From: Chloroflexota bacterium
GTDB lineage: Bacteria > Chloroflexota > Anaerolineae > Anaerolineales > UBA4823
Direction of reading: 5' to 3'
DNA: 64,000 nucleotides
Assembly: GCA_029265355.1 (NCBI GenBank)
Contig: JAJUJL010000010.1
Span: 62,001 to 126,000, forward strand
Shown here piece after piece: positions 25,712 through 30,521 of this stretch. The notes beneath the pieces are model-generated. The model made no database searches. It was not told the DNA's origin and saw only the letters and a list, made by a program, of their open reading frames with translations. Positions within the stretch are counted from its first letter, which is position 1, and each line of letters opens with the position of its first letter. Made by a program: the position numbers and the translations under genes.

Positions 25712-27610
25712 ATGCGTGTGATTGGAACCGCAGGTCATGTGGATCATGGCAAATCCACGCTGGTGCAAGCGCTCACCGGAATACACCCAGATCGCTTGAA
25801 AGAAGAGCGCGAACGCGAAATGACCATCGACCTGGGATTTGCCTGGATGACCCTGCCGGATGGTGAAGAGGTGGGCATCGTCGATGTTCCAGGGCATCGC
25901 GATTTTATCGAGAATATGCTGGCCGGTGTTGGCGGCATCGATGCAGCATTGTTTGTGATTGCCGCCGACGAAGGGGTGATGCCGCAAACGCGCGAGCACC
26001 TGGCGATCCTCGATCTGCTGCAAATACAGGGCGGGGTGGTGGCGTTGACGAAGATTGACATGGTGCCAGACGCGGAATGGCTGGAGTTGGTGGAAGATGA
26101 AGTGCGCCAGGTGTTGGCAGGAACCGTGCTGGGCGAAGCGCCGCTGGTGCGCGTCTCGGCGCGCAGCGGGGCGGGTCTCCCCGAACTGATCCAGGCGATA
26201 GCCAGGTGCCTGGCAGGGCGGCCCTCGCGCCTGGACCAGGGTCGGCCGCGTTTGCCCGTGGACCGTGTGTTCTCCATGCCGGGCTTCGGTACGGTGGTGA
26301 CCGGTACGTTGATCGATGGCAGCCTGCGCCTGGGTGAAGAGGTGGTGGTGTTGCCGCGCGGCCTGCGCGGCCGCGTGCGTGGGTTGCAATCCCACAAGCG
26401 CAAAGCCGAGATTGCTGTGCCTGGCTCGCGCACCGCCATCAACGTCTCGGGCATTGCGCTGGAAGAGATCCAGCGCGGCGACGTGATTGCTCATCCAGGG
26501 GACTATCGCCCTACGGCGCGCCTCGACGTCCGTATGCGATTGCTGGCGGACGTTTCCCAGCCGCTCAAACACAATACCCAGGTAAAGCTGTTCATTGGCG
26601 CCAGGGAGGTGCTGGCGCGCTTGCGGCTGTTAGGTCAGGAAGAACTTTCCCCCGGCGAGGAAGGGTGGCTGCAGTTGGAAACCAGCGAACCAGTTGTGGC
26701 GGCCCGCGGCGATCATTACATCCTGCGGCGACCTTCACCGGGAGAAACATTGGGCGGGGGCGTTGTTGTGGACCCACATCCGGGGCGGCGTCATAAGCGC
26801 TTCGCGGAGGCCACGCTGCAGCATTTGCGCACTCTGTCCCAGGGTGAACCGGTGGATTTACTGCTCCAGGCGTTGGCCGTATTGAAGGCTGCTCCCTTGA
26901 AAGAGGTGGTGGCGCGTTCGAATGTGCGCGCCGAAGTAGTCGAGGATGCCCTGCATCAGGCGCTGGAGCGCGGCCTTATGCTGCCGGTGGAAGAGGGCGC
27001 GACTGCCAGGCCAGGCGACGAAAGCCTGGTGGCTGAACGCACATACTGGCTCGACTTGAACCGGCGCGCTCTGGATGAGATCGATCGCTATCACCGCAGT
27101 TTCCCGCTGCGTCGCGGTATGCCGCGCGAGGAGTTAAAAAGCCGCCTGAAGATCACCGCGCGGGTTTCGAATGCCCTGCTGCGCAGCCTGAGGGAAACTG
27201 GCCAGGTCATTGAAGCCGGCCCGTTGGTTTCGCGCGCCGGTCATGAAATCCGTTTCAATCCTCAACAGCAAGCTCAGGTCGATCGACTGTTAGCCCAGTT
27301 TAATGCCCAACCTTATTCACCGCCCTCAGTGAAAGAAAGCATTGCCCAGGTCGGCGAAGATGTCTTTACTGCGCTGCTCGAGTTGGGTTTGCTGGTTCAA
27401 GTCGCGCCCGAAGTGGTGTTTTCCCAACAAGCTTACCAGTCGATGACCTCCCAGATTCGTAAGCTATTCCAGCAGCAGGGGACGCTGACTGCAGCGCAGG
27501 TGCGCGATCATTTTAATACCAGCCGCAAATATGTGCTGGCGCTCCTGGAGCACCTGGATGCCCAAGGCGTCACGGTTCGCGATGGCGATGTGCGTAGACT
27601 CAAGGGATGA
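25712..27610 (+). CDS. selB: Selenocysteine-specific elongation factor SelB
   Basis: Translation GTPase of 632 residues that delivers Sec-tRNA to UGA codons followed by a SECIS element. It has G1 AGHVDHGKST, a G2 region REREMTIDLGFAW, G3 DVPGHRDF and G4 TKID, then EF-Tu-like beta-barrel domains and a C-terminal third of winged-helix repeats, as in bacterial SelB. No selA, selD or selC tRNA was recognised in the window. The frame is intact. It implies that the genome encodes selenoproteins elsewhere. Confidence 0.92.
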   Translation: MRVIGTAGHVDHGKSTLVQALTGIHPDRLKEEREREMTIDLGFAWMTLPDGEEVGIVDVPGHRDFIENMLAGVGGIDAALFVIAADEGVMPQTREHLAILDLLQIQGGVVALTKIDMVPDAEWLELVEDEVRQVLAGTVLGEAPLVRVSARSGAGLPELIQAIARCLAGRPSRLDQGRPRLPVDRVFSMPGFGTVVTGTLIDGSLRLGEEVVVLPRGLRGRVRGLQSHKRKAEIAVPGSRTAINVSGIALEEIQRGDVIAHPGDYRPTARLDVRMRLLADVSQPLKHNTQVKLFIGAREVLARLRLLGQEELSPGEEGWLQLETSEPVVAARGDHYILRRPSPGETLGGGVVVDPHPGRRHKRFAEATLQHLRTLSQGEPVDLLLQALAVLKAAPLKEVVARSNVRAEVVEDALHQALERGLMLPVEEGATARPGDESLVAERTYWLDLNRRALDEIDRYHRSFPLRRGMPREELKSRLKITARVSNALLRSLRETGQVIEAGPLVSRAGHEIRFNPQQQAQVDRLLAQFNAQPYSPPSVKESIAQVGEDVFTALLELGLLVQVAPEVVFSQQAYQSMTSQIRKLFQQQGTLTAAQVRDHFNTSRKYVLALLEHLDAQGVTVRDGDVRRLKG

Positions 27611-27665: not shown

Positions 27666-30521
27666 ATGCCTGAAGAAACCCTGCACCGTCTAGCGGATGG
27701 ACGTCAGCGCCGCATCTGGGCCGCCGGCCTCATTCCGATCAGCGGTCTGTTTATCCTGGTGGCTTTGTGGGTGTTGCTGGGCGCGGCCGCAGGCGCAAAA
27801 GCTGCCCCAGATTTACCGGATGTTGCTGACCTGACCATTGCCAAAACCCACCAGGGCGACTTCACCATTGGCGCGACTGGTGTTTACACTATCAGTGTTT
27901 CCAATGCTGGGGCGGATCCAGTCACCGGATCGATCACGGTGACCGATATTCTCAGGCAGGGACTCTCGTTCGTCAGCGCGGTGGGCTCGGGCTGGTCTCC
28001 CTGTGGCGTGAACGGTCAGACGCTGACCTGCGTGAATGCCAATGCTGGCGGGCTGGCATCCGGCGGAGTTCTTCCGCCCATCCGCCTGACGCTGGGTGTG
28101 GGAATTACAAACACCAATGTCTTCACCAACACGGCCAGCGTGGCCAACCTGGGTGACGCCAACGCAGCCAATAACACTGCCAATGATCGAACGACCCTCC
28201 TAGGTACAGACCTGAGCGTGACCAAATCGGTTCTGCCAGCCAGCCCGTTAGAGGGTGAAACGGTGCTCTACACCATCCGCCTGACCAATCAAGGGCCAAA
28301 TACTGCCAACAGCGTGCTGCTCACCGATACATTGCCCGCCGATCTCACCTTTGTTTCTGCAGCAGCCAGCCAGGGCGTTTACACCGTGGCCAATGGTCGC
28401 TGGACGGTGGGCACGCTGGCCAATGGCGCCACGGCGACGTTGAACCTGACTGCCACGGTCAAAACGGGCACGCGCGGCAAGACTGTTGTGAACACCGTCA
28501 GCGGCGTATCCTCTGATCAACCAGACTATGACCCGGCGAACAACACTGCCAGTGTCTCATTCGCAGTCGCGGCAACGGTCGTGAGGGGTAAAGTGACTGA
28601 TGCAGTCACGGATAACGCCATTGCATCAGCGCTCATCACTTTGGTAGATAACGCCAGCCGCACATACACTACCACAACCAATGCAACTGGATTGTACACG
28701 TTCACCAGTTCAATCAGTAAACCGATTGCGCCGGGATTGGCGCAAATAACTGCAGCGAAGAGTAACTACGCGACCAAGTCAGTCGCGCCGGTCATCGTTG
28801 CGAACGTGATCAACACCGTCAATCTCGAATTGGACACCACCGATCTGACCGTCACCAAGACCGATGGGGCGACGACGATGATTGCCGGCGGCACCTACAC
28901 CTATACCATCACGGTCACCAATCAAGGGACGATCACCGCCACCAATGTGGTGATTACTGATGTGATGCCGACCTTGATGACTTATGTCTCCGATACCAGC
29001 AACATCACCCATTCCGTTCCGGTGGCATCTACCCTGGTGTGGAAACCCAAGACAGCTCTTGGACCATCCAAATCCTTCAGTTTCAAACTGCGCGTTAGCC
29101 TCGCCAACGCTATGCCCAGCCCCTCCACGGCGCTGACCAACCAGGTGAAAACCAAGACCAAGAGCGTTGAAGCAAACCAGACCAATAATACCGCCATCGA
29201 CCTCAATACCTCGACCGGCAATGCCTCGCCGGCGGTGACCATCTCTGTCACGCCGACACAGGTGCGAACCGGGCAGAATGCCACTTACACCATCAAGGTC
29301 AAGAACAACGGCAATGCGCCAGCGACTGACTTAACCTTGACAGACACATTCTCTACATTGGTGGACCTGGTCAGTGCAACCACCAATAAAGGCACGGCGA
29401 CAACCAACAATACTACCCGACAGGTGACCGTGACGATCGCCTTGCTCAAGCCAGCCGAAGAAGCAACGGTCACGGTCGTGGTGAGGGTCAATACCACGGC
29501 GCGTGCCAACACCACAGTCAGCAACCAGGCCAGCCTGACTTATAAATTCGATGGCTCGACAAGATCTGCGGTTTCGAACTCAGTCTCTTTTCAATTGATC
29601 TATTCTGCCACGTTGCCCGGCACAGGGGGCATGGAACCTGGCCCGACCCAGGCGCGGCCCGATTTGATTTCATTGGGAATTGCTGTGTTCCTTGGGCTCT
29701 TGGGTATCAGTTTGCTTGGCTATGCTGTTTGGGCGCGCCAGCGGCAACCGGAGTGGTCCGCCTGGACGATGCGCATGGGCCTCGTTTTCTCGCTTTCAGC
29801 GCTGCTGTTTGGCGGGGTTGGGTGGGGGTTGAAGAATGTGCTGGCTGAACGGCAAGCGCGCCAGGCGAGTGCGCAGACGGCAGCTTTGCCCACGACTGCT
29901 TCCGAGCCAACGCCGGCGCGCGCTCAGCATGATGAGCCGCCGATCATCATGCCGCCGAATCCGCTAGCTTCTGCCCCGGGAGAAGTTCTGCCAGAATACA
30001 CGATCCCCACACCGGTGCTGCCAGGCGAGGCTGCTCCCGGCGAGCCGGCTGTAGACACATCTCCGATCACGCGCATCACGATCCCGATCCTGGGCCTGGA
30101 TACCGTGGTGAAATATATCCCCTTCGATGGCCTCACCTGGACTATCTCCGGCTTGCAGCAGGAAGTGGCCTGGATGGGCGATACTGCCTGGCCGGGTGTG
30201 GGTGGGAATACCGCCCTGGCTGGTCATGTGACCCTGCGCAATGGCGCCAATGGGCCTTTCCGTTATCTCGCCGACCTGCGCTATGGGGACGTGATCTGGG
30301 TGTATACTGAACAGAATCTGTACGAATACCTGGTGCAGGAGCAGCGGGTTGTCGAAGAGACCGACTTGAGCATTGTCAGCCCGAGCGAAGAATCCCTTTT
30401 GACACTGATCACCTGCACCGATTGGAACGCCACACTGAGATATTACCAGCGCCGCCTGGTGGTGCGCGCGGCTCTGAATTCGGTCGATCCGCTGAAATCT
30501 GAAACTGCCCTGGGACAGTAG
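27666..30521 (+). CDS. DUF11-repeat surface protein with LPGTG signal fused to a C-terminal sortase
   Basis: Protein of 951 residues. An N-terminal membrane segment (about 18-44) acts as signal or anchor. Then come four DUF11 beta-sandwich repeats (about 52-160, 172-300, 402-505, 515-635), with a carboxypeptidase-regulatory or CnaB-like domain between the second and third. A sorting signal follows: LPGTG at 650-654, a hydrophobic helix 667-690 and a basic WARQRQ tail. A second membrane helix (about 702-722) leads to a sortase domain with His854 (LAGHV), Cys917 in TLITC and Arg929/930. Sortase and substrate are thus one chain. Both DUF11 and sortase parts would face outward. No other sortase gene is in the window. 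Confidence 0.9.
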   Translation: MPEETLHRLADGRQRRIWAAGLIPISGLFILVALWVLLGAAAGAKAAPDLPDVADLTIAKTHQGDFTIGATGVYTISVSNAGADPVTGSITVTDILRQGLSFVSAVGSGWSPCGVNGQTLTCVNANAGGLASGGVLPPIRLTLGVGITNTNVFTNTASVANLGDANAANNTANDRTTLLGTDLSVTKSVLPASPLEGETVLYTIRLTNQGPNTANSVLLTDTLPADLTFVSAAASQGVYTVANGRWTVGTLANGATATLNLTATVKTGTRGKTVVNTVSGVSSDQPDYDPANNTASVSFAVAATVVRGKVTDAVTDNAIASALITLVDNASRTYTTTTNATGLYTFTSSISKPIAPGLAQITAAKSNYATKSVAPVIVANVINTVNLELDTTDLTVTKTDGATTMIAGGTYTYTITVTNQGTITATNVVITDVMPTLMTYVSDTSNITHSVPVASTLVWKPKTALGPSKSFSFKLRVSLANAMPSPSTALTNQVKTKTKSVEANQTNNTAIDLNTSTGNASPAVTISVTPTQVRTGQNATYTIKVKNNGNAPATDLTLTDTFSTLVDLVSATTNKGTATTNNTTRQVTVTIALLKPAEEATVTVVVRVNTTARANTTVSNQASLTYKFDGSTRSAVSNSVSFQLIYSATLPGTGGMEPGPTQARPDLISLGIAVFLGLLGISLLGYAVWARQRQPEWSAWTMRMGLVFSLSALLFGGVGWGLKNVLAERQARQASAQTAALPTTASEPTPARAQHDEPPIIMPPNPLASAPGEVLPEYTIPTPVLPGEAAPGEPAVDTSPITRITIPILGLDTVVKYIPFDGLTWTISGLQQEVAWMGDTAWPGVGGNTALAGHVTLRNGANGPFRYLADLRYGDVIWVYTEQNLYEYLVQEQRVVEETDLSIVSPSEESLLTLITCTDWNATLRYYQRRLVVRAALNSVDPLKSETALGQ

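Follow-up and report, generated by a model that had tools for sequence, protein, structure and literature searches.

The window analyzed here, a stretch of 64,000 nucleotides from a Chloroflexota bacterium, contains a gene whose product unites a surface stalk, an LPXTG tag and a sortase in one chain, and this fusion has been retained in dozens of related environmental bacteria. The architecture, its conservation and a two-gene counterpart in relatives were observed directly. We consider it probable that the product is a self-sorting surface protein, in which a stalk like that of fibrillar adhesins is joined to its own dedicated sortase, and that this enzyme cuts the protein's own motif between LPGT and G, passing the stalk on to an amine of the envelope.

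Architecture of the fused protein

The gene is a single uninterrupted open frame on the plus strand (27666..30521) encoding 951 amino acids, in agreement with a previous sequence-only reading of this DNA. By eye, a GGGAG sequence is located approximately 10 nt 5' of the ATG at 27666. A sigma-70 promoter-like site was not found at the fused gene, nor were RNA genes (tRNA included) found in the window. The gene directly upstream (25712-27610 of the window) reads, by eye, like that of a SelB-type selenocysteine elongation factor. All features of the fused protein described below lie on the plus strand. Its first 46 residues (27666..27803) contain a hydrophobic core at residues 20-38, as judged by hydropathy, which had been interpreted as an N-terminal anchor. 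A cleavable signal peptide is more likely, with a putative cut between AKA and AP at residues 44-48, identified by eye.

Four DUF11 domains follow, which were detected by HMM at 27828..28187 (domain 1; C29:89828-90187), 28209..28559 (domain 2; C29:90209-90559), 28842..29195 (domain 3; C29:90842-91195) and 29232..29552 (domain 4; C29:91232-91552). The Pfam DUF11 model matched the four stretches with 243.5 bits (cut-off 24.6) and TIGR04226 scored 54.9 (cut-off 30). The number of DUF11 domains had been given correctly before, while a CarboxypepD_reg-like domain between domains 2 and 3 (28575..28836; PF13620, 39 bits, cut-off 32.3) had gone unlisted. DUF11, also termed CLIPPER, is a stalk domain often possessing an intramolecular Lys-Asn isopeptide bond, for which the structure 9IFR is available (PMC12617251). 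Domain 2 gave a phmmer match to 9ifr_A, and comparison of domain 1 with 9IFR suggested Lys60, Asp94 and Asn155 as candidate isopeptide residues (PMC12617251). Inspection by eye alone suggested plausible Lys/Asp/Asn sets in domains 1-3; domain 4 is devoid of an obvious isopeptide Lys.

The LPGTG motif (residues 650-654, 29613..29627), whose L, P, T and G are invariant in the alignments, is predicted to be cut between Thr653 and Gly654. Hydropathy revealed a first membrane helix, that of the sorting signal, at residues 667-685 (29664..29720), followed by a basic loop (ARQRQ) and a second membrane helix at residues 704-722 (29775..29831), which confirms the order of parts proposed previously. In the AlphaFold2 model, residues 667-685 are helical with a pLDDT of about 95. 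The second helix corresponds to the N-terminal anchor of the unfused sortase, judging from the two-gene relatives L214 and L215. Hydropathy and charge are consistent with a topology in which stalk, LPGTG and sortase would be outside, with helix 667-685 running in, helix 704-722 running out and the basic loop inside. The window protein thus shows the order of a substrate's signal (LPXTG, hydrophobic helix, basic residues), though this signal is not C-terminal: it lies about 300 residues from the C-terminus. Farther downstream, an LPxYxIPTP element (residues 775-783, 29988..30014), whose L and three P residues are invariant among the fusions of this type, is situated about 25-30 residues ahead of the sortase core, near the place held by LPxTG in the second type of fusion described below.

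The sortase domain (residues 804-937, 30075..30476) belongs to PF04203 (peptidase family C60) by the family HMM (84.5 bits, cut-off 26.6), by its fold and by its triad, which consists of His854 (30225..30227), Cys917 within TLITC (30414..30416) and Arg930 (30453..30455), each an invariant alignment column. LPGTG, His854, Cys917 and the arginines 929 and 930 were all found exactly at the residues reported before; of the two arginines, Arg930 is the invariant, aligned one. TIGR01076 also matched (43.5, cut-off 39.35), while the scores for the NCBIfam sortase classes E (53 of 160), D (44.8 of 165), F (35.3 of 166) and C (32.3 of 160) remained below the cut-offs. On sequence grounds, a transpeptidase activity on LPXTG is putative.

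Conservation of the motif and two types of fusion

To collect related proteins, genomes of the class, the order and the family were searched with the C-terminal 306 amino acids, so that selection was based on the sortase match and not on LPxTG. The fused frame was encountered in many independent assemblies, and 70 distinct C-terminally fused sortases were found in the class. A strict LPxTG is present 115-460 residues ahead of the catalytic Cys in 65 of them and in none of 48 complete unfused sortases (Fisher 9e-28, a value that overstates independence because the panel sequences are related). In the remaining five, this position is taken by near-variants of the motif (IPVTG twice, FPESG, APETG and LACTG). 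Loss of the motif from fused orthologues, which had been named as an outcome unfavorable to the original proposal, was not encountered: LPxTG is near-universal throughout the class and present in 23 of 24 fused orthologues of the window's own family (22 alignment rows and L216), nearly always as LPGTG, the exception being L180 with LACTG. The LPxTG columns are 98% identical, as against an average of 33% for the next 15 residues, and the catalytic His, Cys and Arg are invariant. The family region around the motif aligns poorly, with insertions of as many as about 70 residues separating the motif from the helix. In two loci (L079:4015-5112 and L036:1432-2562, both on the minus strand), peptides such as SPLGRGVRGEG recur in the spacer between LPGTG and helix, as if a DNA repeat had been inserted in frame and translated. 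A chance occurrence of the motif was ruled out, as LPxTG arose in 1.7% of cases when the 220 residues preceding the sortase core were shuffled and the fused proteins contain it elsewhere only four times in 82,734 amino acids, compared to 65 of 70 at this place.

The fusions belong to two types. Type I, found in the window, its family and a few other families, has the order LPxTG, helix, helix, linker and sortase, with 245-325 residues between motif and Cys. In type II, which is widespread in the window's order, LPxTGFAPG directly precedes the sortase, no membrane helix intervenes and the distance between motif and Cys is 140-146 residues. Type II proteins comprise up to about 4000 amino acids, mostly without a clear membrane helix beyond the signal peptide; one example that was examined contains SdrD_B, CarboxypepD_reg and DUF11 domains. 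A phylum-wide search with a type II profile yielded full-length matches including LPxTG essentially only in the window's order; outside of it, the sortase core alone was matched, in frames of about 200-430 amino acids. The fused sortases of L098, L113, L116, L126 and L131 end giant surface proteins of 3500-4011 amino acids, and in those of type II among them no membrane anchor is evident close to the enzyme. L159 and L033 harbor sortases of the type II clade without a large N-terminal part and without LPxTG, which look degenerate or truncated.

A two-gene counterpart of type I exists within the same family. In the genomes G398 and G399 (L214, L215), an ORF of 150-166 amino acids with a textbook terminal sorting signal, in one example ending in LPETGEFPIDPGTGLQWLFALTLIFLIGMVLIRTVVKARIRK followed by the stop codon, directly precedes an ORF encoding a membrane helix and a sortase; in L215, the two frames overlap. 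L217 possesses the same arrangement of an LPxTG-TM-basic ORF and a TM-sortase ORF, and in L014 and L017, which belong to other families, a substrate gene is located just upstream of the sortase. Read-through of such a pair would yield exactly type I, with the sorting-signal helix becoming helix 1 and the anchor of the sortase helix 2. In a sortase-domain tree, the type I family clade (98/91) has as its sister group the two-gene sortases L187, L189, L214 and L215 (support of 99/93 for this relationship), and type II forms a separate clade (100/99). The best tree implies three changes between the fused and the separate state. Nevertheless, with two degenerate unfused rows of the type II clade set aside, the data do not reject that all fusions go back to one event (p-AU 0.25). 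The claim of several independent fusions was dropped and convergence is not asserted, because a previously obtained tiny p was driven by these two rows.

Self-sorting and its alternatives

In the self-sorting mechanism that we favor, the protein would be exported by Sec and lose its signal peptide, which would leave the DUF11 stalk, LPGTG and sortase on the outer side of the membrane and the two helices as a membrane hairpin between motif and enzyme. Cys917, together with His854 and Arg930, would then attack the bond between Thr653 and Gly654, either in its own LPGTG or in that of a neighboring copy, and the resulting acyl-enzyme would carry the whole stalk. Transfer to an envelope amine would anchor the stalk covalently, and the sortase would be left behind, presumably held by the hairpin. 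Cleavage, action in cis and the identity of the nucleophile are steps that we infer. The conservation of LPxTG in the fusions lends good support to the previous notion of an enzyme that carries its own first substrate; the interpretation as a whole is supported in part, and the single-use display device also envisaged there would correspond to action in cis. On a more tentative footing, both types may make up a single-chain self-ligating class with a membrane-hairpin form and a soluble LPxTGFAPG-sortase form, where self-acylation of the sortase would occur in cis with the stalk of its own chain, one enzyme per displayed molecule. The soluble form, with up to about 4000 amino acids and a cleavable signal peptide as its sole anchor, could ligate itself to an envelope target after release.

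To assess the position of the motif, template-free AlphaFold2 models were calculated from alignments of the window and locus proteins. The predicted sortase fold matches solved sortases with Z values of up to 17.6. The type II model has a pLDDT of 94 and its LPATGFAPGQ block one of 97; the motif is therefore predicted to be an ordered part of the domain. For the type I segment of the window, the overall value is 81 and that of the LPGTG block only 69. The models were compared with class C sortases by the range ends of VIA-align alignments rather than by coordinates, assuming gap-free first residues. The first aligned residue of type I (2 or 3) pairs with residue 87 of 4g1j, 81 of 4g1h, 46 of 3rbk and 3tbe, and 56 of 2w1j. 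By this count, the Leu of LPGTG (L5) would land on residues 90 (4g1j), 84 (4g1h), 49 (3rbk, 3tbe) and 58 (2w1j). Residues 90 and 84 are the lid Asp of the class C DPX motif (PMC3493515), as are residues 49 and 58 (PMC3166054), and this lid, which has been termed a pseudo-substrate, superposes on the LPAT peptide of SrtA (PMC3493515). In the type II model, LPxTG would likewise fall on the lid Asp for 4g1j and 2w1j, and is off by three to four residues for 4g1h and 3rbk. The range ends are suggestive of LPxTG sitting at the class C lid position, i.e., in the modelled substrate groove, which for type I is consistent with the motif reaching the active site, as had been asked of a structure prediction, at a pLDDT of 69 for the block.

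The same position gives rise to the main rival explanation, namely that LPxTG stays uncut and acts like the DPX lid as an intramolecular pseudo-substrate, closing the sortase as long as no other substrate has displaced it. The placement of the motif by range ends (type I, and type II for 4g1j and 2w1j), the pLDDT of 97 and constant spacing of 140-146 residues in type II, and the pseudo-substrate role described for class C lids (PMC3493515) are all in line with it. However, class C lids are DPF, DPY or DPW and not a cleavable LPxTG, while in the fusions conservation extends over the entire motif, T and G included. Moreover, type I and the two-gene relatives contain LPxTG in a complete, substrate-like sorting signal (LPxTG-TM-basic). 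We regard the lid as unlikely.

A second possibility is offered by the sortase content of the genome, G000, which encodes a stand-alone sortase (G000:C17) in addition to the fused one. Relatives of this enzyme, of about 300-320 amino acids, occur alongside the fused sortase in nearly every genome of the family, and it may be argued that the stand-alone sortase processes LPGTG and the fused domain serves other proteins. Besides the fused LPGTG, one classical LPXTG protein was detected in G000 by a non-exhaustive tag search. It comprises 190 amino acids (L213:5568-6140, minus strand; G000:C42, about 14.6 kb) with an N-terminal helix and a C-terminus of the type LPxTGFxDxxGIPG-helix-basic (LPTTGFADEVG...), and is conserved together with its neighbors, in a syntenic locus that includes a phosphoglucomutase-like gene, in G383 and G399 and in part in G027. 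This protein may be the substrate of the stand-alone sortase, in which case each of the two sortases would be matched with one of the two tags. A PF00746 search of the genome gave no match over the cut-off and also missed the motif of the window. A profile of the relatives' sorting signals retrieved one protein, itself in the profile by construction, and a whole-genome LPxTG DNA pattern was unusable because the reversed control gave 290 matches compared to 410. Hardly any other LPXTG protein was thus detected in G000 that the fused sortase might serve. Processing by the stand-alone enzyme also leaves unexplained why LPxTG is present in fused and absent from unfused sortases, and why substrate and sortase genes are adjacent in relatives, and we hold it to be slightly less probable than the lid.

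That LPGTG and its helix are a vestige of an accidental fusion of neighboring genes, without a present role, would agree with the two-gene state in the same family and its identical order of parts. This view is strongly disfavored by the near-perfect conservation of LPxTG within strongly diverged sequence and by its retention at constant spacing in the second architecture. Finally, a frame error or chimeric assembly joining two genes, which had been raised as an objection from the outset and for which no sign was found, is refuted to near certainty by about two dozen diverged fusions of the same family from separate assemblies, including the single-contig genome G383.

Relation to known sortase systems

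Sortases, sorting signals, DUF11 stalks and adjacent substrate and sortase genes are already known. Usually, substrate and sortase are separate proteins, the sorting signal is located at the end of the substrate, and the enzyme serves its substrates in trans. To our knowledge, the sortases of Chloroflexota have hardly been studied. In the open PMC papers searched, no account was found of a sortase joined to an LPXTG of its own; as far as that literature goes, the single-chain fusion with conserved LPxTG, the persistence of this fusion throughout the family and the LPxTGFAPG version that lacks an anchor are apparently new. Should the sortase cleave its own tag, each substrate would come with one enzyme, already assembled with it, contrary to the in-trans rule. 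Such a protein would be a naturally occurring display module capable of self-ligation and of use in protein ligation, would explain the attachment of giant adhesins in Chloroflexota and would allow both cis acylation and the pseudo-substrate lid idea to be tested in a natural system. The soluble type II version leads one to ask how a sortase can work when it has no membrane anchor.

The DUF11/CLIPPER fibrillar adhesins (9IFR) resemble the fused protein in their DUF11 stalks and, as judged by eye, in the Lys-Asp-Asn isopeptide candidates (PMC12617251). They have been described with sorting motifs, and no description of a C-terminal sortase domain was found for them. With the class C pilus sortases (4G1J, 4G1H, 2W1J), the fused protein may share a segment N-terminal to the barrel that is predicted to lie at the substrate groove. 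What separates it from them is a real LPxTG and a surface stalk; the DP(F/Y/W) lid motif is absent, LPGTG stands where DPX would be expected, and the class C HMM cut-off was missed. The LPXTG signal and the class A/E housekeeping sortases agree with it in motif, helix, basic residues, fold and His/Cys/Arg triad. On the other hand, the signal of the fused protein is internal and the enzyme is part of the same chain. The adjacent LPXTG-substrate/sortase pairs (L214, L215, L217, L017) possess the same parts in the same order as the fused protein, distributed over two proteins instead of one.
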